Shown here in pieces: positions 8,211 to 56,000 of a stretch of DNA of 64,000 nt (positions are counted from its first letter, which is position 1; every line of letters begins with the position of its first letter). The notes under the pieces were generated by a model, which worked only from the letters and a program-made list of their open reading frames with translations, was not told where the DNA came from and ran no database searches. The position numbers and the translations under genes were made by a program. This DNA comes from Marchantia polymorpha subsp. ruderalis. Taxonomy: Eukaryota; Streptophyta; Marchantiopsida; Marchantiales; Marchantiaceae. Where the stretch lies: contig AP031357.1 in NCBI GenBank assembly GCA_037833965.1, positions 18,868,001 through 18,932,000 of the forward strand, written 5' to 3'.

Positions 8211-8232
8211 TACTTCAAGAGTAGGCCACTGC

Positions 8233-8302
8233 AGCCTAGGCAGGACTTGAGCCCGAATCATAGATCCATGGTCGGAAGACTCTCGCGTTGAGCTAATGGA
8301 CC
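8233..8302 (-). repeat. tRNA-like repeat unit 1
   Basis: Read on the minus strand, this unit has a tRNA-like layout. A 7-nt 5' arm can pair with the 3' arm, TAGCTC followed by GAG resembles a D arm and A box, and a TTCGGGCTCAAGTCC segment resembles a T arm and B box. The part between D and T arms is shorter than in a real tRNA and does not form a normal anticodon arm. It is a degenerate tRNA-derived repeat and not a working tRNA gene. It shares long stretches with the five related units nearby. Confidence 0.7.
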
Positions 8303-8436
8303 ATTTACAATAGGAGACAAGGTGACAGATAACAAGAAATAACATAATCCAACACTAGTGGACACTGACATTTCATAGAATAACAATACGGTCGGTTATG
8401 TTCTCATAACAGACACCTTAGACAATAGAAAATTGC

Positions 8437-8523
8437 AGCCCAGGTGGGAGTCTTTCCCCCATGGGTACAAGTACCCCATCACAGATCCATGTTTGGAAGA
8501 CTCTGGAATTGAGCTACTGGGCT
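8437..8523 (-). repeat. tRNA-like repeat unit 2, with insertion
   Basis: Minus-strand copy starting AGCCCAGTAGCTC and ending CTGGGCT, so the acceptor-like arms pair perfectly over 7 bp. The T-arm region is disrupted by extra bases (about 8445-8480). It starts 204 bp after unit 1, which matches the spacing between units 4 and 5. Confidence 0.7.
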
Positions 8524-8589
8524 ATTCACATAAAGATACGTGATGACTTACAGCATGAAGAGAACAAACTCTGGATATATTAGAGAGTA

Positions 8590-9170
8590 GAAGTCCATGA
8601 TTTTACAGAGTGTATGAGAAGATTCTCAAGAAACCAACCCAAGTATGCTCTATGCCTCATAGGGTGAGTTCGAAAGTTTCTGCCAGCTTCATACTCTCCC
8701 CAAACATATAAAAATAGTTCTAACAATTTGCGACTTGAATGGTACTCGTTATTCCTCCCAAAATAGAGACATGCAGAGAGAGGTTGCTGGAAGCTGCTCA
8801 CGTTGGATGATCGACGACAAGCATTCAAGCACACTGTCCCTCGACTGCTTAGAGGTCGACATCTCCCTCGCTTCCGCGGAGAAGCCCAGGCCACAGACTC
8901 CACGCTTAAAATGGACATGGACACGCTTCCTTATAATCCCGTCTGTCCTCTGCAAGAGCCCCAGCTCCATCTCTCCTACTCCTGCTCGGGTTACAGGCAG
9001 CCGCTACGCTGCCCAGATGAGACATATGCTCACAAAAGCATGTTTCAATGTCTCCGTTTGAGAACTCGCATGCCTTCCAGTTTCTCATTTGGTGCTATAA
9101 GTCTATGAGTCCGTGCTCAAAAAGCTGTTTATAAGTTTACTGCACATTCATATTCCTGTATAGTGTTTCA
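8590..9170. repeat. Composite repeat block A
   Basis: This GC-richer block recurs at 11517-12150 (block C), and part of it at 10333-10500 (block B). The best-conserved part is 8951-9018, which differs from 11922-11991 at only a few positions. Minus-strand frames in A and C translate to related peptides containing SRGT-CLN-CRRSS-type strings, so the sequence may once have been coding. In all three places the block follows tRNA-like units in the same order and orientation. The family is not recognised. Confidence 0.75.
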
Positions 9171-10118
9171 ATCTGTCTACATGAAGAATGTGTTTCCGTG
9201 CATCGAATACGAGACAAACTAATAGCTGAAGAAGACTTGTAGACTTGAAACAGAGAGATATTATTTGCTTGTATTGACATATTATAGGATGTCTTCGAGA
9301 TGGGAAAAATTTCCAAGACTTTATAAGAAGAAAATTGTGTATATTGTACTTTAATGAAGTCGTATCGCTTTATAGTTCATCTATACAAGCATGCTTAATC
9401 CAGGTATGTTACGAATACCAACGTTTGCAGCGGTGTTGTCGCTGAGATTATTTGATCAATTTTTCACGATCATTAGTTCGCGGATGAATAAACAAAAGAT
9501 TACAGAATGATATACTGCCATTTCTGTGAGCATGTTTTCACTATGGTCCATCAGACACATGGAATGGATTAGCTGTTTGAACGGTGATAGACAATTATTA
9601 ATAAAGCTTGCCGCAGGTAGTGACCAGAAAAGTGAATGTTTGAGGGTATTCTAAGGCCGTCACTGATGCTCCTTCTGCAAAATAGATGTATTTTATGTTT
9701 ACTTATCCAGCGAACCAGCAAACTTGAAATGCATTTTCATTTCGAATCATCATGTGAGCTTTTCATATCCGTTTTGATTTGTTATCATATTTTGCTTCCT
9801 TCTATCATGATGGTCTTGGTTAGACCAGCACTTTCATGTTCGATACCATCATCATCAGTAGTCTTAAAATACTGGACTTAAACAGTTGAAAATTTTGTGT
9901 TAATTTCACTGTGTCCTTATGTAAACACCAAAGACATTGCAGCCGCCACAAAAATCGGAAAAACGCTATTGCATTGAGTTACTTTACCATTCCCATTAAC
10001 CGATATGATGACTGATTAAAAGAAGACGCGATACTCCGGAAATACTGGATGAATAAAAAAATTATGAAGCAATACAGTACATATAAATATGCTCTCGTAA
10101 AACACCCAGAAATAGTGA
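9171..10118. other. Spacer between repeat modules
   Basis: AT-moderate sequence without a recognisable gene or RNA. The longest frame, plus 9636-9881, shows no known domain. Confidence 0.5.
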
Positions 10119-10119
10119 C

Positions 10120-10266
10120 AGCCCAGGCACAATTTCAACCCGCACTATAGATCCTCCATTTTAAAAGATGACATGATAATAGAAGTTGACATAATCCAAC
10201 ACTACTGGACTGTGACAGTTGATGAGACAACCTCATACCTAATTTACTTGTATTATTTACTGGGCC
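10120..10266 (-). repeat. tRNA-like repeat unit 3, split
   Basis: The 3' half of a tRNA-like unit (T-arm side) lies at 10120-10155, and the matching 5' end, ending in GGCCCAG on the minus strand, lies at 10250-10266. About 95 bp of sequence separates them. It contains a segment like the spacer that follows the other units (compare 8345-8370 and 10848-10885), so the split probably arose by recombination or nested insertion. Confidence 0.55.
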
Positions 10267-10332
10267 AATCACACGAAAAGACGTGAAGAATGACTCCAGG
10301 AAGTTCTTATGCTCTGGCAAGACTAGACTGTA

Positions 10333-10500
10333 GTAGTCGATGATTTTACAAGCTGTCTTTTCCAAGAGCCCCAACTCCCATCGCTGCTTCCCCGAATCGG
10401 GTTAAACGCAGCCGCTACACAGCCCAGATGATACATGTCTACTCAAAACCATGTCTTGCTTTCTCTGCATGAAACCTGGAGTGTCTTATAGTTCCTCCTT
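10333..10500. repeat. Composite repeat block B, shortened
   Basis: It begins like the other blocks with a GTCGATGATTTTACA motif, then jumps to the AAGAGCCCCA and CAGCCGCTAC parts that are separated by about 350 bp in blocks A and C. It is therefore an internally deleted copy. It follows tRNA-like unit 3, as expected from the module order. Confidence 0.65.
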
Positions 10501-10942
10501 CGGTCATTACCGTCAAGATCGCCATGTTCAATGTTCTGTTCATTAGTTCTAATCCATATCCTTATTCGTATTTAGTTTTTCCTTTAAGTAATGTTTTGCA
10601 TTTATGTCATCTTCTACAAACTACCATATTCTGGTCACTATATTGAGCTCAAAAGTTGGAACAATGTTTCCTTGGTCTTGGTTACCTGACAATGGGTTGT
10701 ATAAAATATGATTGATGTAACTCGACATTGAGTAAAATGAATTCGTTTCTGAGCATAAGACTATCTTACAATGCGTATAAATGCATAGCGAAGGTTCAAA
10801 GATTTTCTCACTGATTTCATAAAGTTTCAAACAAGAAGTTGATATAATCATGAATCATAATCTAGCACTTCTGGACTGTAAAAGAGAATACATGTTTATT
10901 GATTTAGTTGTGGGAGTTTCTGAGAGACACCAAAAGCATTCC

Positions 10943-11008
10943 GGCCCAGGCAGTACTTGAACCCGCAGATCCATAACTTGGAAGACTCTTGCATTGAGCT
11001 ACCGGACC
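10943..11008 (-). repeat. tRNA-like repeat unit 4
   Basis: The best-preserved unit with an uninterrupted T arm. On the minus strand, GGTCCGG can pair with the terminal CTGGGCC (with G-T pairs). A D-arm-like TAGCTC...GAG follows, and GCGGG-TTCAAGT-ACTGC resembles a T arm with a 7-nt loop. Only about 17 nt lie between the D and T stems against about 23 in a normal tRNA, and only a 4-bp anticodon-like stem can form. It is preceded and followed by the shared spacer sequence. Confidence 0.7.
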
Positions 11009-11143
11009 ATTTACATGACGACACAAGACACTTGACTGCAGAATCAGATTATAATCCAGCACTTCGGGACTTTAAAACTAAATACTGTACAGCCTTGTTG
11101 TTTAAGTTATACGATGTTCTCGTACATACACCAAAAACGTTGG

Positions 11144-11213
11144 AGTCCAGGCAGGTTTTGAACCATCGGCATTGATCCGTCTTTGGAAGGCTCTTGCATT
11201 GAGCTACTGGGCC
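11144..11213 (-). repeat. tRNA-like repeat unit 5
   Basis: The minus-strand unit begins GGCCCAGTAGCTC and ends CTGGACT. It lies 201 bp after unit 4, nearly the same period as units 1 and 2. The spacer between units 4 and 5 contains the recurring ATAATCCAGCACTT and GATGTTCTCGTAC words. Confidence 0.7.
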
Positions 11214-11351
11214 ATTCCCATTCACATGGGATCAAATTATGATTAAGTACAAAGCGGTATCATAATCCAGCTTGAATGGATCGTAAAGGTGAACAAAATT
11301 ACGATACAGTAATTCGGTGATGTTCTGACAACAAACACCAAAGAAATGTTA

Positions 11352-11467
11352 ACGAACTTGAACCCACATCACAAATACATGTTGGACAAAACTTTGCAGC
11401 CCAGGCAGGAATTGAACCTGCAGCGCATATCCATGTTTGGAAGGCTCCTGCATTGAGCTAAGGGGCT
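11352..11467 (-). repeat. tRNA-like repeat unit 6 with a partial copy
   Basis: A full unit at 11398-11467 is preceded at about 11352-11392 by a partial T-arm and anticodon-side copy, giving a spacing of 254 bp from unit 5 instead of about 203. The T-arm-like segment carries CAGGTTCAATTCCTG on the minus strand, close to the B-box consensus of RNA polymerase III genes. Acceptor pairing has decayed at the 5' end. Confidence 0.65.
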
Positions 11468-11516
11468 GATCACTGACTACAACAGGAAATCATACTGCAG
11501 CCACACCTGACTGAAG

Positions 11517-12150
11517 CAGTCGATGACTTTACATTATATTCCGTTATGAGGAAAAATGTTTCAATGATCACTTTGCCTCATGTAGTAGCCATTCATTTTT
11601 CTTCCAGCTTGGTATCCTCCCCATTCATCAGATAACATTCACTGACAACTTGGAGGTTAAAGGTAGTCATAATCGCTCCCAAAAGACAAAAGGCAGAGAG
11701 AAGTTGCTGAAGACTGCTAGCATCGGATGATGGCCGGCAAACATTCAAGCACGCTGTCCCTCGACTGCGCAGAGCGGATAGTGATCGTTGCTCGGTCGCC
11801 CGCCTCACGCTTTACCTTCCACATTATCCACCCAGACCCCTCTCGCTTCCGCGGAGGAGCCCAGGACAGAGACTCCCCACGCTTCAAGTGGACGTGCCTT
11901 CCACATGATCCCCGCGGTCCTTGGCAAGAGCCCCAGCTCCATCTCTCTTACTCCCGCTCGGGTTACAGGCAGCCGCTACGCTGCCCAGATGCGAGAAGTC
12001 TTCACAGACGTGTATTTTATTGTGTCTGTGTTAAATCTCGCGTGCCTTATAGTTTCTCGATCGCTGTAGTACAGTACGTCGATTTGTCCTTGTTCGAATA
12101 GCTGTTCATAAGCTGCAATACATTTCCTTTTTTGTTGACAGTGTTAGATG
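11517..12150. repeat. Composite repeat block C
   Basis: Full-length relative of block A, with small insertions such as about 11780-11840. The region 11922-11991 is the most conserved. Related peptide strings occur in the minus-strand frame 11593-11808. It follows tRNA-like units 4-6 in the same order as in the other modules. The function is unknown. Confidence 0.75.
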
Positions 12151-14240
12151 TTGTGCCATTTGTGTCATACACAATTTCACTTTTACCCATCAGACATAGA
12201 GAAAGCAAACTTATTGCTTCCCTTCAGTAGCTCATATGAAATTTTGTCAATGTTGGTAAGTTTAGTCTGAACATTCACGAGATTGAAGGTCGCTTTTTTC
12301 TAATTTCAATTCATGAACTCTCAGAAAGCTTTCACGATTGAAGCATTAGCGTATGGCGCTTAAAGACGACTGACTCGTATTCGTACATCGTTGATTAGCC
12401 CAGGGCAGCCCTTAATTGATTCTTGTTTGCAGTTATCGATAGCAGAGGGCATTGATGACCTGGAAATTCTAGACTCGTATCCAATATGAGTGACAACATC
12501 ACTTGCTTCTAGAGTCAGATTGAAGACACGAAACACAACTTTACTACCTTCATTCGGTGTGTGCGTATTGTCCACCATTCTGCTGGAGTTATATCTTCAT
12601 AGCTCGAATGCCAATTCCGTGAACAGGACCGGGTGACCAACAACGACGGACCCTTTCACCATTTCATAAATGGCGATGAATATAAAACTCGTGAAAATTT
12701 TATGATTTAAAACAAAAACACATGTTATTTTGTTTTATTCTATCATTATTATTTTAGTAAGTGTGATTATATCTATAATTTGAGTGGTTCGATATATTTC
12801 CATGCAAGATATAAATGTGAATAATTTTTTTGACAAAAAGAACATTCAAATATTATTTTCTTATACAATGCAATATTGTGGACATCGTAACTATGAGTTA
12901 TTCTGTTAAGAATTTTTATCCATTTAAGATATAATTTTTGTTTAATTTGATACTATATATTCAAACATATTTAAATTTGTCAAAAAACCCCATATATTAA
13001 TGTTTTCTTTTACCATTATTTATATTAAAAAATTATTATTATATGATTAGTAATTGAGTTATTATTCTTATATCAAACTATTTTATTACTCATATTATCT
13101 TATAAAATAATATCACTTTTTAAATTAATTATTTATCATTCAATCGACATAACATTTAAATTTTTAAAAATACTAAAGATTTATCATTTAATACAATAGA
13201 ATTGATATCATATTTGCTTCGCAATTCCACTCAGATGAATGCGTATCTATGATCCGTACAACTGGCTTCAGTTGTTTCGTCGAGGATAATTCAAGGAAAA
13301 ACAACATAAGGTAAGTCTATGCAGATGGCGGACGGCAATACGGTGCAGTAGGGTGATGAGGATGACAGATTGGGGCGGAATAAGGTTCTCAGGTCATGTC
13401 TCTGCTCTCGTGTTCTCAAGTAGTCTCTGTTGTGCTTATCTGATTGCATGAGCTCATTGTCAGTTTCTACCATTGCATCAAAGTGATGCGTCCTATCGCA
13501 GTTCTATCACCTGCTCATTTGAGAGGGATAACTTGTTGTATGTGGAGATTTTGGTTAGGTTAGTCATAAGCTATGTGCAATGGGTAAAACCCAGCAAGGT
13601 TCTAGGTCAGCTCGTATTACCTATGTAGTTGCAATGCAACCCAGCAAGGTCATAAAAATCCTCGGTGTTGTTACAATTCTTTTTGTCTTGTGCATGTCTA
13701 GAAGAAGATTGCGATACTCTGAGACAGAGTACAATTTGCAACATTTTCTCTTTGTGAGAACAAAAACTATAATTTAAATTAGCAACAGATTTTTTTGGAT
13801 TAATTTCATGGATTATTCTTAATTATAAAAATATTTGCAAACTTATGTCAAAAGCCATAGTGACATTATTTTTCAATGAATCGAGAAAAATATCACTCTA
13901 AATTTAACTACATAAACATAGAGTCATTTACTAAAACATTATATTTTGTCATCAAGAATCAATATCGATCACGTTATATAATGACAAGCTAATTGACGTA
14001 ACCAAACATAATTTTAATTGAATTTTTATTATCTACAAATTATCTCATGAAATAACGAGTTAATTCTTAACAATTTACAAACATATTGAAATTTCTTAAT
14101 CTTGTTACTTTTAGACAAAAATTCGATGATTTCTTCTTTGAAAACTTTACAAAATGATTACAGAAATATATAAATTTCAATTTTAAGTTATGAAAATCAT
14201 GAATGATTATTTCAACTTAATTTTTTAAGTACAAGATTTT
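12151..14240. other. Intergenic, mostly AT-rich
   Basis: No recognisable gene. From about 12680 to 14240 the sequence is strongly AT-rich except for a short GC-richer patch near 13220-13700. Within that patch the 12-bp word ACCCAGCAAGGT occurs twice, about 50 bp apart (13589 and 13639). Confidence 0.5.
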
Positions 14241-16620
14241 ATTTCATGTGGCTGTTTGGGGCTCAAAATGGGTTTAAAGCCCCAACTGCCCGACACCTTA
14301 TGTAAACATTTAACATGCTCGCTAGCGTCTGGGCACGATGTTAGTTACGCGGAGTCTCTAGCTGTCGCAGAAGATGCTGATTGCGTTTCTATGGTGGTGC
14401 CCCGGCAAAGGGGCGTCCCAAAGATTGGTTGAAGCCGCTTTTGTGTCCCGCACACGGTATTCTTTAGTAAAAGGCGAAAGAATAGTTCGCTCTGGGCTGA
14501 ACACGCGGTCGATGACGCTGGTATCGGAATTCGGCATATATGTACCTAGTCTCGAGCATTGAGATGCTTGTACGCTTATGGGTTAAAGTCCCACTGGGTT
14601 CGGACAAATGAGGAACAGAGACTACAGAGTTTCAGCTAAACTGAAGCTACTCATGCGGAACAATAGTACAATTACCGGCTACCGGCTATTATTTCGAGGT
14701 TTAACAAAATGGGTTTGCACTAACCCAAGATGACAATGTCAAATCACTCGTGGCTTGAAAGAATTTTCCGATCAAAAGAACATGGAGAGAAGATTTCATA
14801 TTACTGAAAGAGCATTCAAAAATCAAGAGATTCATCCAAACTTCCACGTCTGAATTCTCGATATCCGTGTGTAGGTTCAAACCATGACACAGTAACTTGA
14901 CTTCGTGACTCAAACTCCGAAGTGGGAGATTCTGTTGCATGTCCAGAAGAATTGTGTGTGTGATGCAGCCATTTTTGCTTTCCGGTTCCATTGAGTGTCA
15001 AGTTACTTGTTGTGGTTGTCTACGATAACTATATGATCATTTAGACGAGAGTTTTACTCTGTGATGATCTATCACAGCTACGATTAACCAAGGAATTTTA
15101 TTCAGCTCCAAACATGGGATCAGCACAATCTGGGACACAAGACCAAATTGAAAGCGCCGTACTTATGAGCTCGTAGAGATGCGGAACTAATCCACTCCAA
15201 AACAAGAATGGATGGGTAAGTTTTATGCAATCAGGAACTTCCTCATTTAATTTATTCTTGTAATCTACTTCTCAATTATGAAAGTTCTATAAAATGTATC
15301 AATTATCATCATGATTTCAATACTTAATAAACTCAAAAAAAATTGAACCAAAAAATAGACACTAAAAATTCCTATTTCAAGAATTTTGCATACAGTTACA
15401 AGGTTTTTAATGAAAGTGATTCCAACATGTTGTAAAGGTACTAATTATTAAGCTAACTCTAGAGTTAATCTAATTTTTTCTTAAAAAATCTAAAATTGCT
15501 TTGTCTAAAAAAAGTATTTGTCAGATAAATCTAAGATTTTTATTCCTATATTTATTCCATGACTCTTCCAATGTAAAAATATCCCGAATTATTTAACGTG
15601 TACAATCCACAACGTTTATACGAGTACACGAGTTAATATCTATGCGTAAATACGTCAATTCTCATCGATGCATGTTACTTTTGTAGGACGTAAACGCTAA
15701 CGGGAAAGACACAATGGTACACATATAATAGACCTATTAAGATGAATGTCTGCAGGTGCTCATCTGAAAGGTTAACTGTACTCGGTTTCAAAGGAGGGGA
15801 CAGATTCTGATCTGATTATACTTCCTCCAAACAGCAGGAATTTGAGTCTTTCATGCGCGCTTGAAGTTGACCCTGTTCTACGTACCGTCCTTCCTCCACA
15901 AGAATAATGAAATCTCACGTGCGTTCTTCGGATATCGAATTGCAAACGACTCTGTTATGCAGATGCCTGATGCTGACCGAAGTAGCTGCGGAATGGCCGT
16001 GGCTGCTGTTTCACGTGGACGTGGATGGCGATGTGGGTACAGGTAGCATGGAATTCGGAAGGGAACTCACTGCAGTTTCCAGAACATGATATCGCCTCGA
16101 CTTCGTGATCAAAGGATCTGAAAGCTGAGGACGGATCCGAGTACAGAGGAAACTTTAAGCTCAAAGGTACTGTACTAGGAGTAAGAGCTTCCAGTAATGA
16201 CTTAACGCGTGACTCAACAGAAGAAATACAGAAGTCAGGCAAGATTCGAACTTCAATTCTATGGGGCCGTTTGCATGACGAAGGTATGAGAATCCGTTAT
16301 GAGAATGTTTTCTTCTTTGTTATGTCCAACATTTAGAAGCTACTCTCATCTTAGACTGTCATACGCGTTGGTACTAGCTCGAGCAATGTTACCAAACAAA
16401 GCTGTCGAGAATTGTTTACTGATATTGTGGCGTAGTCCACTATCTCATTTTGCAATTTTGATTTTGTCCCTTTTCTCTCAATTGACACAACATCATCTAC
16501 ATATATCTATATTGATTCTAGGATCTAACAATAGGAGAAGCTCTCAATGTCTTCGTTGTGAGGTGGAACTAAATCAAATGCTTGACCGTCGTAGTTTCCA
16601 CAACAACTGTGTAAACTGTG
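14241..16620. other. Intergenic region without a recognisable gene
   Basis: Mixed composition. Frames reach 95-96 codons (minus 14701-14991 and 15955-16242) without known domains. A short imperfect hairpin surrounds GGGGCT/AGCCCC near 14257-14283. Nothing else could be supported. Confidence 0.4.
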
Positions 16621-24270: not shown

Positions 24271-24812
24271 TAGCAATTCTACGTTGTTTGCGCAAAGAAC
24301 AAATGTTTGCAAGTCTGCTCTAGAATAAGTAAAATCTAACTTTTCAAAGGTATCGGGTGCCACCTTTTTTTTTTTAAATAATTCGGAAAGAGAATTTTTG
24401 AAATGAGTGTTCGCATGTTATGCGGCACGACATCTTCAGTAAATGAATCTATCAAATAGTGTAGGTCCTTGAGGATGACACTAGAAATGAACAGTGACTT
24501 CAAAACAACAATATTTCTAAAAGTGAGAGATGTGTGCTCATTGAGATCACAATGATTAGCATTTGTAGGGAGGCATAGTGGATCAAAGTTGGAGATTCAT
24601 AATATCCATGAAATCTTTGAATAATTTGACTTTTTATCATTACGATACTTTCATAACTTTCTATCCAAATACAAGATCGTGTAAATCTGTATCTTTCCGT
24701 ATCATTAAAAAAAAAAAAGGTGGCACCCGATACCTTTGAAAAGTTAGAATTTACTTATTCTAGAGCAGACTTGCAAACATTTGTTCTTTCCGCAAACCAC
24801 GTAGAATTGCTA
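24271..24812. mobile_element. Inverted-repeat element (MITE-like), 542 bp
   Basis: The left end at 24271-24378 and the right end at 24707-24812 are reverse complements over about 105 bp with few mismatches. Outer termini read TAGCAATTCTACG on each strand, so a TA target duplication flanking a GCAATTC terminus is possible. The inner ends of the repeats carry T and A runs. The 328-bp centre has no coding capacity. Size, long terminal inverted repeats and lack of a gene suit a non-autonomous DNA transposon. The superfamily cannot be assigned. Confidence 0.75.
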
Positions 24813-26058
24813 TCAAAAGGAGAGATAAATAAGACAAATAATTTATCTCTTAAGATTCGAATATCTAAACATCAGTTTTATCTGTACCATTTGTAAACAT
24901 TAAATTATTAGACATTTGTGATAAGGATTATTTTAAAACTTGATGTGTTGTGAAAGACAATAAAAATATTTATTTTGTGATTGTTTAATAATTTTTCATG
25001 TCTTAAAATTGAATGAAAATATGCTTAAATACCTCAAATGTTTATTAATTTATTTACCATGCTTTAAATATTTTTTCCATATTTTAATATAATGATTTTA
25101 TATTTATATCCCTAAATAAATATTGAAAATGGATTTTTTCAAAATAGCATCAAAGATAAAAACTCTTTAACACTGTAACATAAGCAAAATGAAAAAAATT
25201 AGGAAAAAAATTGAAATATTGAAATTAAAATAATACGAACTTTCAAAAAAAACTTGAAGAACTTACATGTGTTTGTATGAATAATTACTGTAAAAAATCT
25301 TAAATATTTTTTGAAAAATAAGCCAAATTATTATTTTTCAAATATCCATTCAATTATAAAGTAAAACTAATATCAATGATAAAATATTTATTTTGATATT
25401 ATGTCTACAATCAAATTATGTATAAAACTTATGTGTTTGTCTGAAGTTAATCCAAATCTTGATTAATATTGGCTATTTGAATCGTTATTAGTTTGTTCAG
25501 TAAATCAATTATTGTACATGAAAAATATTCAAATATGTAAGACAATGAGGATTTCAAGAAATTAGTTTTGTGTTTTATGAATATATTCACAACAAGTTAA
25601 CCATATATTTTGTGAATCATCTTTTTTTCCCATTACATGTGACAATTTGTGAATTTTGTGTTCAAATTTTTGATTTGGTATTAGATTGTTAATTATTTCC
25701 TTTGTTGTTGGTCATGGTGTTGAGAAAAATTCAAGAGATCAAAAACGTGGGTGAACGGTGGGGGCAAGGTTGAGGAAGTAAAAAACGGTTGTATTTGAAT
25801 GACCATCTCTATGTTCAATTTTGTTTGATTAATCACAAAAGTTTTAAATTCTTGTTTCAACAATTGCATTGGAAGTGTTTTAACTACAAATCTAGATAAT
25901 CAACATAATGATAATGACATCTTTGTTCCTATTGTCATATGTGTCATATATATAAAACTTAGCAAACCACTTTAACACAAGAAAAATAACTTGTGTAGTT
26001 GAACATGTGAAATCATACTAGTTTAGCATTCATTAGCTCTTAAAATATTAGCATTTAT
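24813..26058. other. AT-rich block without genes
   Basis: Strongly AT-rich, with no frame or repeat that can be identified. It separates the inverted-repeat element from the copia remnant. Confidence 0.6.
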
Positions 26059-26168
26059 TAGCTCTACAGTTATTACTACCCACTTTTTGGTACTCCGTAC
26101 ACAATATTAAAGAATGTTTGTACTTTGTACTATAGTCAGTGGTCGTGACACTTAATCACGACCAGCCG

Positions 26169-27270
26169 ATGTATTGAGAAGATATTCTTGTGGAGACCAT
26201 GAACGTATAACACTTCAGGTATTATCCGTTCTTGTCTATCATTCAAAGAAATGAGTACATTACCTTTTTCCTGAGTGAGTTGGTGACTGTCGTTGCCTAG
26301 ATATACAAACTCCTTCGATGTTAGTTCACTATATGTCATAAAGGCATTTTTGTTGTATGTCATGTGTTCAATAGCACCAGAATTCACTTACCAGGCCGGA
26401 TCCATCCTGATTGATGTTAGAGCAGTGACATACAACCGCTGGTGATTGTTTGGTGTAGAATGTGAAAAAGCGCTGTCGTGTTTCTTCTTCCGGCACTGGT
26501 TGGGAAGATGACCTTTCTTCTTGCAATAGAAGCATTTCATCCTTTGCCTGGGAAAAGATGGTTTGGCAGGAGGTTTTGATCTTAATGAAGTACCTGCCTC
26601 AGTGGAGTGTCTTGGATGCATCATCTTTGGTGTCTAGCCTCGTTTCTTTGCTGTGTAGAGTGTTGCCATTTCGTCGGTCAACTCTTCTTCTTCTTGGAGG
26701 TGTGATTTTTCAAGAACAACACTAGCAATAACATATTTAGTGATCAACGTTTGCTTTGTTCGCATGGAGTGCACAAGGAATCTATATTTGATGGGAAGAC
26801 TTCGAAGGAGACAAGCATAAGCTTCTGCCTCTAAAATAGTCTGCCCAATAGATGCCAATTGGTGAAGAAGTAGACAAAACTTGGAGATATGTTTAGCTAC
26901 CAACTCGCCTGACTTCATTTTGAGAGAATGCAATGCATGTATCAAGTGCATCTGCATTGGTACATCATGGGATTCAAAAAATGTATTCAGTTCAGCCCAG
27001 GCCTCTGCTGCTATAGAATGGCTAGCAATCAATGGATGTTGATGGTCTCTCAACGAGTTACTCAACACCGCCAAGAACATGAGATTTTTAACATCCCATT
27101 CCTTCTGCCTTGCGCCTGACTCTGAAGTTCTGGTTGTAGAACTCGGTGGAGTGGTTGGCCGAACTTCAGTCCCTTCCATCATGCCCATCAATCCTTGCAT
27201 TCAAAAGATCAAACTAATCTTGCTCTTCCATGCATGGAAATGCTTATCATTGAATTTGGGAAGATATTTT
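26169..27270 (-). pseudogene. Copia gag-protease remnant
   Basis: The reading frame is continuous on the minus strand but is cut by stop codons near 27201, 26634 and 26388, with no frameshift between them. The gag start includes KFNDKHFHAWK before the first stop. The gag body (27200-26634) resembles the UBN2 copia-type gag family. A CCHC zinc knuckle, CFYCKKKGHLPNQC, lies at about 26530. The protease start has NSGAIEHM in place of the usual DSGASxHM, followed by VLYVHGLHKNIFSIHRL, typical of copia protease. The catalytic Asp is replaced by Asn, and the domain is cut short at the inverted LTR piece. It cannot encode a working protein. Confidence 0.85.
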
Positions 27271-27562: not shown

Positions 27563-27689
27563 TGGACAGCGGCTGGTCGTGACTAAGTGTCACGATCACT
27601 GACTATAGTACAAAGTACAAATTTTTTTTAACATAGTGTACGGAGTACCAAGAAGTGGGTAGTAATACTTCTAGAGCTAATTTTGTAAA

Positions 27690-38329: not shown

Positions 38330-38983
38330 TGTACCGGAAAATAAAAACTGGCAATAATTTTTTGATTAATGATAAAACGATGATCTGAGGTGAAGGAAGT
38401 CGCAGTCGCTCCTTCGTCGTTTAGCAGGAGCCGGAAAAGTACAGTCGAGACAGGAGACTTGAAGTTTACGGCGCTCTGAGGGCGGAAAGGGACTGCGTCG
38501 GGGATCAGGGGTGGGTACAGGAGAAGCTGGGGGGAGGGCTTTTCCGCCCTTCTGGCGAGTATGACAAAGAAAGACGTGAAGGGAAGGAATGGGACGGGGC
38601 CGGGACGAGGACGAGGACGCCCGCGGTGGTGAGGAAGGAGCAGGAGGAGGGCCTGCCCTGTTTTACGTCCTCCCGTCCCGTTCCGCATCGTCCTCTGGCT
38701 CGGCTCCAGCGCTTCCAGGCAGCAACAGCCTCCTTGCTATTCTGCTGCGTGTCTGCGATCATCTCGTCGTCTCTTCGTCGCTCTTTTGAGTGAGAGGGGA
38801 AGGTGGTCGTCCAGGCAGTCGACTCCACAAGGGCTCCAAGAGTGAGGTTTTCTCGACGGCTCGCCTCTCTTTTGTGGGTGGGTGTGGGTTCTTGCGTTTT
38901 CTTCTAGGGCAGAGAGAGGAGCGAGCGAGCGAGAGCGAGAGCGAGTGAGAGAGAGAGAGAGGGATCGGAGGTGAGAGGGCGCG
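38330..38983 (+). promoter_or_regulatory. Promoter and 5' leader of the MPP-beta gene
   Basis: GC-rich stretch directly upstream of the start codon. A purine-rich tract of GAGC and GA repeats (38911-38962) lies just before the AUG, a common feature of plant 5' leaders. No convincing TATA box was seen, which suits a housekeeping promoter. The transcription start cannot be fixed. Confidence 0.5.
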
Positions 38984-41900
38984 ATGGCGGGGAGGATGTT
39001 GGCTCAGGCAGTGGGCAGGAGCGCGAGGCGGAAATGGAGACAGGTCGCGGCCCTGCACAGCCACGCGTTGGCTGTTCCCGATGATCGATTCAAGAGGTAC
39101 AATTCGCCCGTCCCCATCACTGCCGATCACACGTCCGTCCTCGCCACGCCCCAGACCAGGGTTACCACTCTCAGCAACGGGTTGAGGGTGGCCACCGAGT
39201 CTGGCCAGGCCTCGGATACCGCCACCGTCGGAGTGTGGATCGATGCCGGTAGCCGATACGAGACTGCGGCCACCAATGGGACCGCCCACTTTTTGGAGCA
39301 CATGATTTTCAAGGGCACTGCCAAGAGGAGCCTGAGGCAACTCGAGGAGGAGATCGAGAACATGGGTGGTCACTTGAATGCTTACACTTCCCGTGAGCAG
39401 ACTACTTATTATGCTAAGGTGCTCGAAAGGGATGTGCCTGCTGCTGTTGACATCTTGGCGGACATTCTCCAAAATTCTTCCTTCGATCAAGACCGAATCG
39501 AGCGCGAGCGGAACGTTATTCTTCGGGAAATGCAGGAGGTAGAAATTCTCTCCACATGAATGAATTATTGTGATTGCAGTTGGATCCACCAGCACGCTCG
39601 ATTATATGGGATTTCTCTATGTAAAAATTTAATCGTTTGTAAAATTGAAGATCCGATGACAATGAATTTGGCTCAAATGAAAGGTAGTTCACATCCTTCA
39701 GTTGACAATCAACCGTAACCGTGCTTTTGAATCTTAATACGTAGTCCTCCTGTAAGAAACGCGTTTTAAGTCTAAATCTTTGAGCTGTTCCGCGGAAGAG
39801 TTCACTCGCCGGCTGGCATCTTGACTAGTCTCACCGCAGGTGATGTAGATCAAGCTTCTATGCTTCGCTAGAAGTCGGAATTAGGAGTTTACTGAACTTG
39901 AGGTCTATGAAGGAAGGTACCGAACTTAGTAGACTAGCATCATAGTCACGGCATGTCGAAGCCAAATCAGTCTTACAGTTTGTTATCTGAACTGCAAATT
40001 ATGGAAATTCCTCGTGCTTAGACATAGAGAAGGCTTTTGGTTCGTCAACATTGAAGGAGGGGTCAACGAAGACTGCCACCTCTACATCCTCTACACGGAC
40101 GTAAAGAACCAGGGAAGAATCAGATTGCGAAGCTTAAATCCTCGAAGGGTAGGATCCGTTCGTTAATTGAAATAAGCGCAATACATCTTACTCAGTGACT
40201 AGAGACGCAGAGATGGTGCTGGTTGTTTATATTTTCTGCAGTGGAACATCCTACAATACTCGCCTGGGATGTGATATCAACCCCTCTCACTTGGAGTGCT
40301 GGATATACCGACATCTGCCACAGGCATAGCCCCAAGGTTCTGAGAGTTTTGCGTGTCTAGTTTGATGGACGACGAAGAGGGCTGATGATTGTGGAAGTGT
40401 GGTTGGAAACTCTCACAGGTGGAGGGTCAGGTAGAGGAGGTTCTGTTTGACCACCTCCATGCCACCGCTTTCCAGTACAGTCCTCTTGGACGCACCATTT
40501 TGGGACCGGCAGACAATGTGCGATCAATCACCAGAGCCGACTTGAAGGACTACATCTCCACTCACTACTCAGGACCCAGGATGGTAAGACCTTCTGCTTG
40601 TGAAATCTCATCCAGAGAGGACTTTGATGTGAACATTTTTTGCTCAATAGCGGTAGAAATGCATTTGCGAACCAGATAACCTTGCTTCCTTTTTATCGGT
40701 GCCTTTCTGACACTTGTAGTCTAGTTGGACAAAATTTTCTTGTAACTGATTCGCGATACTTTTGACTTGGAGTTGTGACTTGATTTCAGTTGTCCTTGAA
40801 GTTAATGATTATTGTTGAAACTACAGGTCATCGCAGGAGCTGGAGCTGTTGACCACAACAAGCTGGTTAAACTTGTTGAGGAGAAATTTACCAGTCTGTC
40901 AACGGACACCACCACAACAGCTGACCTTATCAAGAGAGAGCCCGCAATTTTCACAGGCTCAGAGGTGATCATTTATACTTGTTGTGAGTAAACAATTTGG
41001 GGGATGTTGAGTGTATAAACTGTGTTGGATACTGCTCTTATTTAGATGTACTTCAAGCCCGTGCGTACATCGGAATAATTCTGCGTTATTTTTACTGACC
41101 CCACGCTTGTTCTTCAGGTTCGCATCAGAGATGATGATGTTCCCCTAGCTTACTTCGCTGTGGCGGTTAAGGGAGCAGCATGGACAGACCCGGACTCCAT
41201 TCCGTTGATGATTATGCAGACCATGTTGGGACATTGGAACAAGAGTGCCGGTGCTGGAAAGCACATGGGGTAAGCTGAAGAATTTGCTACTCATTCTAGT
41301 CTTCATTCTAGTCGTTTATCTATCTTTGCAGAGTAGTCTATTTGTACGACCTGAATGGAGGTCACATTGTCGTCGTCTTATACTTAATTCCAGCTGTCTG
41401 ATCTCTCCTTCTCCTCGTACTGCTTTATTTCTTTCTTCTTCTTACTCGTACTCAGCCAAGGGTGCGAGGCCTTTGATCTCTTGTCTGGGCATCGGCAGAT
41501 CCTATTCATACAGTTTTTACTACCTAAGAGATCAGATTGTTATTCAGCTCACCTCAAACATAGATGAGGAATACTAAATGTAACTTTGCAAATGCAGATC
41601 GGAAATGGCGCAGATGATTGCAGCAAACGATCTTGCCGAAAATGTGATGGCATTCAACACGAACTACAGCGATGCTGGACTTTTTGGAGTCTACGCTGTT
41701 GCGAAGGTATTATTTTTTATCTAATTTTTCCATCTGTATCTGACTGGAATTTGATTTAGGTGTCAATTGATGTCTCACTATCACCCTTAGACGTACCCGT
41801 TTTTTTCTCAAGAGGGCGAGACGCCTGCCAGCTGCTACTAGTGGCTGACTTTACAATCCAAATGAAAAGATAAAACACAAACGCGTATGGGTGTTGCGAT

Positions 41901-50002: not shown

Positions 50003-53000
50003 ATGCACGCCGCCGTTTCGTGTTGCGGTTTCTCTCATGCGTTGTCTCCCGCAATCCAGGTTCGTTCCTCTCCGCTGCGATCCTCGTGCCAATTCGGATG
50101 GTGGTGTACAGGATTCCCGGAGGTGTAGGTAGATTTCGAACATGGATGACTAGTGATGGGCGGAATTTGCGTGTTGTGTCACATTTGGAGTTGTGTCATG
50201 GCCATGGATGGAGCTCCTGCATTAGGGCTTTCCGTATGTCCTGGTTTTGTCGGATGATCAGTCCACTCGCATTCAGTTCCATTGCAGATTTCCTCTCGCT
50301 TTTTTATCGTTTGGCATTGTGAAATGCCTGATACTCGTGGATGAATCGTTGTTCGTGCTCGACTCTGCGTCCTGTTGTGGTGTATGATGAGCCTGTCATC
50401 TTCCGACCAACGGAATGGAGGAGGATTCGTTGTCCTGCTCTTAGTAAACAGTAGATAACGTATTCGGATGATATGCAAGACTCCCGCAACAATCTCACAT
50501 TTTTCCACGATAGTATTTGCTTGGTCACGCATCTGGCCGAGAGCATTATCACGAAATTAGATTATTTTCTTCTAGAAATCGATTTCCTGCCAAATCCAGC
50601 CTCTTATATGCGACGGCCGAGTCACCATCCGCCATGGCTGAGTTACGAACGCGCAGTACTCAGCAGTAAAACCAAGGGGATTCGCGAACCAAGGGGATCG
50701 AGGGATCGTCGTAAACTCTTGGCTGCGATTTATAACGTGATCATCCCGAATTTTAATGTCAGAATGGCTGGAACGAAGCTGAATCTCCTGTACATATCTG
50801 GAGAACATCCATGGCGTCGATATGCGTTGGCTAGGGTATTATGGTAGAGGATGATAGACCGTTGCAGAAACTGAACCTGGCGGAGATATGGGTCGCCCTC
50901 AAAATTTTTTCACCTCCATCCCATCACTACCTCTTCACACGGTAATGCTGTGATTCTTGTGCTGACTGTGGTGCCGTCATCAAATTCCACCAGCAGGGCC
51001 GAAAGAGGGAGGCGTTGTCGACTGCGAGATGCACGGATTATCAACAGCTGATTCTTAAAAGTGGCCAAGGAAGGTTGTCCGCCTTAGGCCCTTGCGGCTT
51101 CTGCAAGTCCACTTGGACGAAAGGAGGGGTGAGTTCTGATCTTACTCGCGTCGCAATGTGCCCAAAAAGTGCTCTTGAGGTTGATTCAAAACCCTGAGCT
51201 GGTGATGTCTCTCATAAGTGGCAGATTATTGGGCACTGTGGCCACGATTGCGAGATTCTGCACTGTTTATCTGATAGAAAGTTACTGGCTTCCATAAAGG
51301 GTAAAGTTGAGCGAGTTGATTTCATCAGTCTTTGAGTAGCACTGTATTGGTAAGGCGCGATGTGAGCTGTGCCTTTTTAATGTATCCATGAGCATCGAAT
51401 GTGTGAGAGGCTCCTTGAGCGAGCGACGATCGCAGTCGCCTTCCGCGAGTGTCGTGCTACAGGATTAAGGAAGAGATTTGTCTATTGGGTTAGTCTGTCC
51501 CACTTAACATGCCGTATTGAAATGCATCACCCTCGCTTTGTGATTTTGGCAGTCTTCTCAGCTTGCTGTGGAGAAAACAAGGATGCAGGTGCATTCTGTC
51601 CATGCCGCGAGTGTGGAGACTAACGAGCCGCTTGTCCGGAAAGAAGTTGAAGCCTCTGCAGACCGGTTAGGTGTGCTGGATGTGGATCCGGACCTGTCTC
51701 CACATGCTGATCATCTTCGATACAGGTTCAATCAGTACCAAACCAAAAAGGAGCTGATTGAGAAGTACGAAGGAAGTCTCGAGGAATTTTCTGAAGGTTA
51801 GTTCACTACCGAGTTAAATTCAGTGTAGATTACAATTTTCAAGCAGCGCCCCTTATGAGTCCGTGTTGAATCCTTTCTGGCCACTTGACTAACGTGTTTG
51901 AAATATACTCTACACAATGCTTGGGTGAGGGTAGCAGTATAGACTGCCGGCTATATGTTTCATACAGAATTGTGACTTAATGAGCTTGATATATTATATT
52001 TGATGGCGGCATCATGATTCTTCTTCTTAGATTTTTGACATATCGAAAGATCTACGAAGAAATCTTCCGGTTTGTCATTAATCTCAGTTACACGTTTGCT
52101 CTCTCCTGATTATACCGTTGTCTAGAAGTGATTGCTTGAAACCATATTTCTTGTGTTGCGGGATAGAGTTTTGGGTTATGTAAGTGCTGTCTGCAGATAT
52201 AAATCTCGGATGAAACTAACGTAAGTGATATTTGCTGCAGGTTACAAGAAATTTGGTTTCAACCGGCAAGATGGTGTCACAGTTTACCGAGAATGGGTAC
52301 CATCAGCCAAGTAATAATTATTTTCCCTGGACCTGAGATATACCCGGGAAGCATTCGCCTAGTATTGCATGGTGTCCCACTTGTTCCAATTGTGCTTCTC
52401 TTGCCTTACTTTTCAGGACTGCATACCTACTCAGTCAAGGGGCATGAAAAAAATTGAACATACTTAATTTTTTCAGTGAATTAGTTGTTAGTATTTCTTT
52501 GGGGTTCTTCCTTTAGATTGAAATTTTTGTATGCTCATCCGTACAGCATAGAAACGATGTTGCTCATTAATCAATTTCTGACGGATTCAGGGAGGCAATG
52601 CTCGTCGGTGATTTCAACGGGTGGAATGGTGCTGATTACCGGATGGAGAAAAATGAATTTGGAGTCTGGAGCATTAGCCTTCCGGATAGGGATGGAAAGC
52701 CTGCAATTCCCCATGGTTCTAAAGTGAAAATCAGATTAATGAAGAATGATGGTAATTGGGTGGATTGTATCCCAGCATGGATAAAGTGGGCCATTGTGGA
52801 TCACAGCAAGTTTGCCGCCGCGTACGATGGCGTATACTGGGATCCACCTGCATCTGAGAGGTCGGTTTTGGTTAGCTTGTATTTCTCAATCAGTTAGTTA
52901 TCGATGGTGCTTCACCATGTCTTATGCATTTCAACAGATATTGTTACTGGGTTGAGTTGAGTGTTTGAAATTAAGATTTGTTGACTTCGCGTTTGATATG

Positions 53001-56000
53001 CGCAGATACGAGTTTAAGAACCCTCGCCCTCCTCAGCCGACTGCGCCTCGCATCTACGAAGCTCACGTAGGAATGAGCTCTGCGGAGCCACGAGTTGCAT
53101 CTTACAGGGAATTTGCTGACAATGTGCTACCCCGCATCAAGGCCAACCACTACAATACCATTCAATTAATGGCTGTGATGGAACATGCCTATTACGGTTG
53201 CTTCGGGTATCATGTGACCAATTTCTTCGCTGTCAGCAGTCGTTCTGGGACCCCTGACGACCTCAAGTACCTAATTGACAAGGCTCATGGTATGGGAATC
53301 CGTGTTTTGATGGACTGCGTTCACAGTCACGCTAGCACGAATACTTTAGACGGCCTGAACGGTTTTGATCTCGATCCTGGTAAAGGAGGGTCTTATTTCC
53401 ATGACGGTGCCCGAGGTTATCACAGTCTATGGGATAGTCGTCTCTTTAATTATGGCGCGTGGGAAGTGCAACGATTTTTGTTATCAAATTTGCGATGGTG
53501 GTTGGAAGAATATCAGTTTGATGGCTTCCGATTTGACGGTGTCACTTCAATGCTATATCACCACCATGGATTGAACATGGGCTTTTCTGGAAACTATCAC
53601 GAGTATTTTAGTCCTGCCACAGATGTAGAGGCCGGAGTATATCTTATGTTGGCGAACGAGCTCATTCATAAGCTCTTGCCTAGCGCGACTATGATAGCAG
53701 AAGATGTATCTGGCATGCCTACTCTTGGCAGGCCTGTTTCTGAGGGGGGTGTAGGTTTCGACTATCGTTTGGCCATGGCCATACCAGATAAGTGGATCCA
53801 ATACATGAAGGAGAGAAAGGACGAGGATTGGCAAATGGGAGACATAGTTTACACTCTTCTGAATAGGAGGTATACAGAAAGGTGTATCGGCTACGCAGAG
53901 AGTCACGATCAGGTGAGATACCCAATGTCTTCGCTATGTTTGCAAAGAATGTAGTGCATGTCGGCACTAGAGCTTGTGACGAGAACAATAACCAATAGTT
54001 GCGACACGCCTGTGCCGTTTACACATGGGCCCGTCAACACTTCACAGCTTGTAGTTATTATGAGGTTCTATCCTGGAACTCGCGCGTTTCCACCAGGTTT
54101 TGATGATGCGAATGTTTTGAATGGCTTTTTGCTTTGGTATTGAGCTTAATTATTTTGTCTTTTCTTCTTCTTCTTTTAATTATCAGTCCTTAGTGGGAGA
54201 CAAAACGTTCGCCTTTCTACTCATGGACAAGGAGATGTACTTCGGCATGTCAGCTAGCAATCCGTCATCACCTGTTGTCGACCGTGGTATAGCTCTTCAC
54301 AAGGTATGTGTGCATCTGTGGATATCGCAATTTACTTTTTTTGTAACTGCTTTTGTTTTTCAAAATAATTGAGATTTTGCTCGTCTTATCTGATTCCAGT
54401 GCTGTGAGACTGCATAGCGTCCAAATGTGCTAGTTCGCCCTTGTAAAGAATCAACGAATTCCAACCCTAGCAAAGGCAGATCTCACCGTAGAAAAACAAG
54501 CGTCAAAAGAAATTCTCCCAGCAAGTTTTTTCTCCCATTTCTTGCTTTCGTGTTTAGAATATTTTTACCATGATATGTGCCCTTTGTGACGGCTACTGGA
54601 TTCATCGGTTGCAGATGATACATTTTATTACCTTCGCTCTTGGTGGCGAAGGGTATCTTAACTTCATGGGAAATGAGGTATGTTATCAACATAATTGTCC
54701 TTTATCTTCCTTTTTTTCTTCGGTTAACGTTGTTATAGGTGGTTAGTGTGTCGGATCACGCAGCGTGGTGGCTGTCTGATTTTTCTTCGCTTCAACTCTC
54801 TAATTTCAGCTTGTTGCTATTTCAGTTTGGTCACCCAGAGTGGATTGATTTCCCAAGGGAAGGTAACAACTGGAGCTACGATAAATGTAGGAGACGTTGG
54901 GATCTGTGCGATGCCGAACATTTGCGTTACAAGGTAACAACTCAATGTTAGAAGTATAAAGTATCTATAGTTGAGAATGTTCTTTGAGACAGAAGAGTTT
55001 CACAAAATTGTAATGCTGTTAAGGTTTCCGATTGTAGGACGTGAACAGATCTGTGATTTTGAATGTTTAATAAACTTTGCCTCCTTAACAACATATTCTG
55101 TTCTCAGTGGCAAATTGATAAGATGCGAAACCAACCCAAATTGGTTTTGTTGTGTTTCAGTTTTATTATATAGCTCACCAATCTGTGTCTCGCTCACTTT
55201 TCTCAGTACATGAACAACTTCGACCAATTAATGAACGACCTTGATGAAAGGTTTGGCATCCTAAGCAGCAACAAGCAGTACACTTCATGTGTGAACGAGA
55301 TGGACAAGGTAGGCCATATGTTTATCGCGAGTTGCAAGTGGAGTAGATTACTTCGTGTTGATGACAGTTTTTTCCGCTGCACTCTAGTACTTCCTATTCA
55401 TAGTTGCTGATGTCTAATGACTTTGAATGCCTCCGAGCCTGTTAACTAATCAATTAACAAGGTGGTTGTGGTTTGTGTAGATGATCGTCTTTGAGAAAGC
55501 GGACATGGTATTTGTATTCAACTTCCACCCGTTTAAGTCATATGAAGGGTAGGTGACTGGCTCTCAGCTCTCTCAGAGAATCTGTAAGGAAGGATATGTT
55601 GATCACTATATTGGCTAAAAGTAGAATCTGCGGACATGACAACTTTGTGCGTGAGCTGTACTCCTCATATATTTTCCTTGTAATATGAATCAAAGAAATT
55701 GAATTTCGGAAATAAAGAATTTTGATTAAACCGGCATTCATTTTGCAGATATAAAGTCGGCTGCGAGTTGCCTGGAAAGTATCGAGTTGCCTTAGATAGT
55801 GACGTTGCGGAGGCTGGAGGCTTTAGCCGGGTACTTACTTCAAGTGCCATGTCTCTGTTTGAATTGACCGACTGTGAAGTACGCACGAGAGTATATATGT
55901 TTGACCGCCTGGCATAAATTTGCGTAAACAAACAGCAGTCAGATTTAAACCTTGATTTACAAACAGTCTACTGTTGAGCCGTTCTCGACTTTGGCAAGTT

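Follow-up and report, generated by a model that had tools for sequence, protein, structure and literature searches.

What is the arrangement that recurs three times between positions 8233 and 12150 of a 64,000-nucleotide (nt) stretch of the Marchantia polymorpha subsp. ruderalis genome? The stretch, hereafter the window, is C8:18868001-18932000 (contig AP031357.1), and the genome searched comprises 241.5 Mb in 9 contigs, denoted here by C and a number. A reading made from the letters alone (the sequence-only reading) had described three modules in which transfer RNA (tRNA)-like units on the minus strand are followed by a related, GC-richer block. It had suggested a mobile composite element, perhaps a short interspersed element (SINE), with amplification by unequal exchange as an alternative. 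The GC-richer block is a plant signal recognition particle (SRP, 7SL) RNA gene on the minus strand. The locus as a whole is likely to be a cluster of separate small-RNA genes that is old and has been duplicated more than once, in which SRP RNA is accompanied by a probably transcribed tRNA-derived family. This family is the interesting part of the locus.

The full-length SRP RNA gene at 11695..11989 (minus strand) matches positions 1-305 of the 305 positions of the Plant_SRP model (RF01855) with 132.3 bits, the cut-off being 105 bits. This score falls within the range of 28 other SRP copies from the fetched genome stretches (108.8-143.4 bits), and the gene is 87% identical to a copy on C2. An alignment of 31 copies, three of them from the window, delineates a promoter region at 11990..12060 (minus strand) with the words GAGAAACTATAAGGCACGC, which we take to be similar to an upstream sequence element (USE), and ACAATAAAAT, presumably TATA-like, and with a motif at 12054. 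Upstream, the 28 other copies have the stretch GAGAAACCATAAGGCACGCCAGG..CAGAGACAATAA in common when aligned. The word AACCATAAGGCACGC upstream of SRP is similar to words upstream of the U5 and U1 small nuclear RNA (snRNA) genes (AACCCATAAGCGTAC, AACCCATGCACGTAG). Runs of at least four T near the 3' end are present in 28 of the 28 other copies; the copy at 11695 retains the upstream stretches and a T4 terminator, its T-run being shorter than in most of the others. Its score is that of a plant SRP gene, and in upstream sequence and terminator it is similar to the 28 other copies in this genome. The difference is that here the gene belongs to a tandem triplet with two broken copies, with tRNA-like units just downstream.

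The copy at 8775..9017 (minus strand) lacks SRP nucleotides ~149-215, being recovered as two blast pieces (nucleotides 1-148 and 216-295), and scores 45.6 bits, below the cut-off; it is a probable pseudogene. The element at 10351..10428 (minus strand) is a 5' fragment of the gene, its first 76-77 nt, with 77% identity to SRP nucleotides 1-76 and an upstream motif partly retained to about 10500. The three blocks are indeed related and share one orientation: positions 8230-9164 align with 11141-12135 over 1,036 columns at 63% identity (E 3e-82), and 10352-10610 match 11914-12168. Duplication accounts for this local triplet, in line with the amplification considered before. However, the block does not come after the units, since all elements lie on the minus strand and it is therefore upstream of them in the direction of transcription. 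The linker between the gene and the first unit, 11470..11694 (minus strand), contains T-runs (CTTTTGTCTTTT) adjoining SRP and, beyond them, the upstream element of that unit.

The tRNA-like units of the window were found by blast with the common 72-nt unit of the genome. All six units named in the sequence-only reading are real and lie on the minus strand, with 81-88% identity to the common unit and E below 1e-3. Unit A (11397..11467, 87%) keeps the A and B boxes and has TTTT just downstream. It is followed by unit B (11143..11213, 83%), with TTTTT just downstream, and unit C (10942..11008, 83%), which has a small deletion before the T arm and TTTT just downstream. Unit D (10119..10154) is a 3' half with the B-box side only (81% over positions 37-72) and no TTTT downstream. 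Unit E (8436..8523) is 88% identical over its first 50 nt (8474-8522) and has TTTT downstream, and unit F (8232..8302, 83%) has no TTTT downstream. The A- and B-box words, signals of RNA polymerase III (Pol III), are retained in four of the six units by eye; the unit at 8437 has lost its B box to a T-arm insertion, and the unit at 10119 lacks the A-box half. As tRNAs the units are weak, units A, B and C scoring 23.3, 21.3 and 20.4 bits, all below the Rfam tRNA cut-off of 29 bits. Further pieces at 11356-11380 and 9962-9983 gave no significant blast match to the common unit. ARAGORN with default settings found no tRNA in the window, and its run with relaxed thresholds was discarded, as it produced hundreds of hits spread over the whole window. 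A match to SNORD18 at 10792-10856 was set aside (22.9 bits, cut-off 41). The copies in the window would be mostly decayed members of a genome-wide family.

There are 242 genome matches to a 24-nt pattern of the A-box half at up to three mismatches (none for the reversed control) and 203 matches to a 23-nt pattern of the B-box half at up to two mismatches (none for the control). Among the 100 A-box-half places listed out of 242, 92 are on C6 and eight on C2, C3 and C8; one B-box-half place among the matches listed is on C4. A single unit used as the query yielded at least 43 other matches, all on C6, with 40 of 149 candidates scored. The C6 units are arranged head to tail, spaced mostly by 195-200 bp and in some cases by 150-205, and their arrays are interleaved with U1 genes. 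They reach 43 bits as tRNA, excluding one true tRNA in locus L036 (56.3 bits), which appears to be tRNA-Ala by reading of its sequence. One unit at C8:19.95 Mb scores 47.9 bits.

Comparison of the units points to retention of both the core and the terminator. The units used here are the 190 with at least 60 aligned positions and full flanks; 166 of them are distinct, and 125 of the 166 come from the C6 loci L029-L036. Of the 166 distinct units, 84% have TTTT in the 20 nt that follow the core, compared with 2-20% for five other 20-nt windows and 20% for shuffled sequences, and in 68% of the 41 units outside the main C6 arrays. Thirteen between-locus comparisons (here and below, identities between units are means of at most 40 pairs) gave identities of 70-82% for the core, 35-63% for the preceding 60 nt and 25-46% for the following 60 nt, with 19-38% for shuffled sequences. 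Within loci, the identities of the core and of the two flanks are 81% as against 54% and 59% in the C8:19.95 array, 82% as against 62% and 57% at C6:3.48, 75% as against 53% and 36% in the window, and 64% as against 46% and 42% on C3 (3 pairs only). Over 59 units the conservation of the core is 0.88, compared with 0.73 for the ~30 nt upstream and 0.57 for the downstream flank. Within the core it is 0.86 for the middle part, which lies between the promoter boxes, 0.86-0.87 for the acceptor, and 0.90 and 0.93 for the A and B boxes.

These values bear on one alternative, namely that the units are a tandem repeat, selfish or neutral, of tRNA pseudogenes that were multiplied by unequal exchange and give no useful transcript, their proximity to SRP and U1 being hitch-hiking on segmental duplication. 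Many copies have decayed, as such a repeat would. However, the core and the terminator are conserved though both flanks of the same units diverge, and neutral decay alone is insufficient for that.

The common C6 form folds into a 7-bp acceptor, a 4-bp D arm with a 7-nt loop and a 5-bp T arm with a 7-nt loop, and a 4-bp stem with a 5-nt loop replaces the anticodon arm. There were 143 distinct cores; 28 of a length other than 72 nt and two with less than 70% identity to the common form were dropped, and in the remaining 113 ungapped cores each pair of the three tRNA-type arms is kept in 83-99%. The best possible anticodon arm of 5 bp with a 7-nt loop has all five pairs in one of the 113 cores, versus 17 of 21 real tRNAs, while shuffled middles give 9%; in the other cores it has four pairs (31 cores), three (80) or two (1). 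Thus the family lacks the anticodon arm of a functional tRNA.

The parent gene was sought in a sample of tRNA-Ile(AAT) and 20 further tRNAs of few isotypes. Within this sample, the acceptor, D and T parts of the core are best fitted by tRNA-Ile(AAT), with 29 of 38 positions, followed by tRNA-Ile(TAT) with 26 and tRNA-Gln(CTG) with 25, and alignment over the whole length gives 51 identities for tRNA-Arg(TCG) versus 49 for tRNA-Ile(AAT). Matches to the 5' half of tRNA-Ile(AAT) occur near the C6 arrays at 8.7906, 8.8144 and 17.2172 Mb; the fetched places at 8.7906 and 17.2172 Mb are tRNA-Ile(AAT) genes. At 17.892 Mb there are six such matches in tandem, and two genes at this place are tRNA-Ile(AAT).

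SRP copies and tRNA-like units lie near one another more often than chance would give. SRP copies were counted with a 21-mer that occurs at 63 places (two for the reversed control) in 25 clusters and misses the SRP copy at C8:9.586 Mb. Four of the 25 clusters, one of them the window itself, lie within 2.5 kb of a tRNA-like place, the list of which is incomplete; in 20,000 random placements, from which contig C1 was omitted, the mean was 0.027 and the maximum 2. Within 6 kb there are five of 25 (random mean 0.051, maximum 3, again in 20,000 trials). When each cluster was kept on its own chromosome, the random means were 0.010 and 0.023 for the two distances. One C6 stretch was taken here as an evenly filled range, and the other C6 places are a selection.

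Five loci in total hold SRP copies and tRNA-like units together, so the composite recurs outside the window, which supports that part of the sequence-only reading. At C8:9.586, 19.951 and 19.972 Mb there is an SRP copy with 97-131 nt of shared 3' flank, the SRP-proximal part of the linker at 11470..11694, and tRNA-like units are nearby; at C3:26.206 Mb SRP copies stand beside units. The C8:9.586 Mb locus contains SRP nucleotides 3-295 (78%), the shared flank, a stretch resembling a small nucleolar RNA (snoRNA) and four tRNA-like matches, in the order and strand of the window. At C8:19.951 Mb, the first 171 nt of SRP, a partial flank and twelve tRNA-like matches (two of them weak or short) also follow the same order and strand. 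The loci on C8 may be copies of one another, hence not independent. The snoRNA-like stretch (L050 2148-2230, plus strand; C8:9.5855 Mb) is a C/D snoRNA, snoZ102/R77, with 63.1 bits (cut-off 40), and lies between the SRP copy and the units. Several findings argue that the pairing of the two parts is not obligate: the SRP 3' flank is present at four further places without known tRNA-like units, large C6 arrays of units have no SRP matches, and units are absent from 10 of the 11 SRP-seeded stretches, the sole exception being C3:26.2. C9 carries 44 of the 63 SRP 21-mer places (1.61, 2.05-2.15, 2.45, 5.2-5.6 and 6.47-6.56 Mb), and in the C9 SRP stretches that were fetched (L038-L040, L046, L047) no match to the tRNA-like unit reaches an E below 0.01.

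In a sample of 42 scored out of 3379 U1 candidates, 11 of 41 U1 matches lie within 2.5 kb of tRNA-like units from the incomplete list, all on C6. These eleven (C6:8.78-10.09 and 17.22 Mb) score 92.7-109.1 bits, and the 24 best of the 41 score at least 113.8. It is possible that the eleven matches inside the arrays are U1 variants or pseudogenes. As the unit-adjacent matches are confined to C6 and low-scoring, they may stem from few duplications, which again speaks for the neutral repeat.

The likely history of a duplicated cluster of separate small-RNA genes would be as follows. The tRNA-like family would have descended from some tRNA gene and then lost the normal anticodon arm. Pol III would make from its units an RNA of ~72-80 nt, presumably unable to decode, and the module together with its surroundings would have been copied jointly by unequal exchange and segmental duplication. 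That the family is transcribed is probable, judged on its sequence. The SRP RNA and the tRNA-like RNA would be independent transcripts of genes that were jointly duplicated, because the T-run of SRP comes ahead of the first unit, and boxes and a further T-run go with the units themselves. A single dicistronic SRP-tRNA transcript was rejected, as the T-run is close to the 3' end of the SRP copies.

Several observations weigh against this account. At C8:19.972 Mb, which contains SRP nucleotides 7-294 and the flank, five tRNA-like matches are inverted, the nearest ~800 nt off. At C3:26.206 Mb there are five SRP copies above the cut-off, and the five tRNA-like units are inverted with respect to the nearest copy. 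At C8:9.586 Mb the units begin ~970 nt from SRP, with the snoRNA in between. Because of these inversions and this gap there is no fixed layout. Among the six units of the window, two have no TTTT and two lack a box. The full cloverleaf is the minimum-energy structure in none of five window units folded, and folding gives weak z-scores, namely -1.12 in the common form, -0.93 to +1.06 in four units of the window and -1.75 in unit E. No covariation was found in the 113 cores, where two-sided pair changes are almost absent and virtually all changes in stems are one-sided or break the pair. Finally, the conservation of the core could partly reflect gene conversion restricted to it. The comparisons thus argue for constraint on the sequence of the unit and not on its fold, because the core outlasts the flanks, while the stem changes are one-sided and the folding energies unexceptional. 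The lack of covariation also favours the neutral tandem repeat, which we regard as a possible explanation but not a probable one.

A SINE-like composite, retroposed as a tRNA-like head together with an SRP/7SL part, would explain the A and B boxes, the presence at several loci and the isolated copy at C2:14.275 Mb. However, the block is a known gene (Plant_SRP), and its copies retain the upstream promoter sequence, unlike retroposed RNA. The C6 units are in tandem and, as said, occur in arrays free of SRP, most SRP-seeded stretches have no units, and the arrangement of the two parts varies between loci. A T-run directly follows the tRNA-like part, and AAAA is found within 20 nt downstream in only 3% of the 166 units. 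Neither a SINE body nor an A-rich or simple-repeat tail was found, and the downstream flank is little conserved between loci. The one isolated copy examined (L053) shares ~30 nt upstream of the tRNA-like start with the C6 units; the longest repeat flanking it is 8 bp, partly inside the shared region, and this copy has no convincing target-site duplication. The mobile element suggested at the outset is therefore very improbable.

Another explanation is that the units act as DNA elements, for example a boundary or insulator bound by TFIIIC, beside the SRP and U1 clusters. Repeated A and B boxes are indeed found beside small-RNA genes on three chromosomes. On the other hand, there are none near the 10 SRP-seeded stretches mentioned above or near 30 of the 41 U1 matches (the latter relative to the incomplete unit list), and the core is conserved in its non-promoter middle as well. 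We consider this role unlikely.

Besides the cluster of SRP and tRNA-like genes, the window contains a U5 snRNA gene at 14397-14510 (minus strand; 88.5 bits, cut-off 40), which is 2.4 kb away from SRP and is preceded by AACCCATAAGCGTAC and CATATATG; the genome has 44 U5 matches among 47 candidates scored. At 24271-24812 there is a long imperfect palindrome, 70% identical to its reverse complement in an alignment of 561 columns. Inverted repeats of 116 bp (26057-26172 and 27566-27681, 90% identical) stand on either side of a copia-type gag reading frame at 26634-27200 (minus strand; PF14223, E 2.9e-27). Exons of an M16 peptidase, which we take to resemble the mitochondrial processing peptidase, are at 38975-39559 (plus strand; PF00675), and those of an alpha-amylase-family enzyme, presumably similar to starch branching enzyme, at 52956-53954 (plus strand; PF00128).

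In this way a puzzling repeat finds its explanation in a cluster of small-RNA genes, and attention is drawn to a tRNA-derived family whose units obtain weak tRNA scores from Rfam. We tentatively suggest, as one possibility, that this plant lineage evolved its own abundant Pol III small RNA, derived from tRNA, with acceptor, D and T arms and a remade anticodon arm, encoded by copies that number in the hundreds, are largely in tandem and accompany the SRP RNA and U1 snRNA gene clusters. Were the family transcribed, its RNA would be a counterpart in plants of the 4.5S RNAs of rodents; if not, the tRNA-like units could inflate automatically annotated tRNA gene counts. Their repeated proximity to SRP and U1 genes prompts one to ask if duplication has hot spots in clusters of small-RNA genes. 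We know of no transcript of the tRNA-like unit. An open-access full-text search, with subscription papers outside its scope, returned no description of such a family in any title or abstract opening among the matches listed.

In trypanosomatids a neighbouring tRNA gene, upstream and divergent, acts as the promoter of snRNA and 7SL genes. The tRNA-like boxes beside SRP and U RNA genes are similar to that situation. However, the units here are downstream of SRP or converge with it, and a conserved upstream region belongs to SRP itself; a promoter role of this kind for SRP was rejected on the geometry. Some C6 units are upstream of U1 in the same direction.

Tandem clusters of plant tRNA genes, such as the Pro and Tyr-Tyr-Ser clusters of Arabidopsis and tRNA-Ile of maize, appear in the main text of PMC12652284, which contains neither the word Marchantia nor the word liverwort. 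The likeness is in head-to-tail amplification of a tRNA-type Pol III gene, and the difference is that the unit here has no normal anticodon arm. Also comparable are the small Pol III RNAs of rodents, 4.5SI, derived from tRNA, and 4.5SH, derived from 7SL RNA, the genes of the latter being tandem, in hundreds of copies, according to PMC7279448 and PMC10137851. The likeness is in small Pol III RNAs, predicted ones in the case of the tRNA-like units, with genes of tRNA or 7SL descent, and it does not imply common origin. A difference is that in Marchantia the gene of 7SL type is the normal SRP RNA gene.

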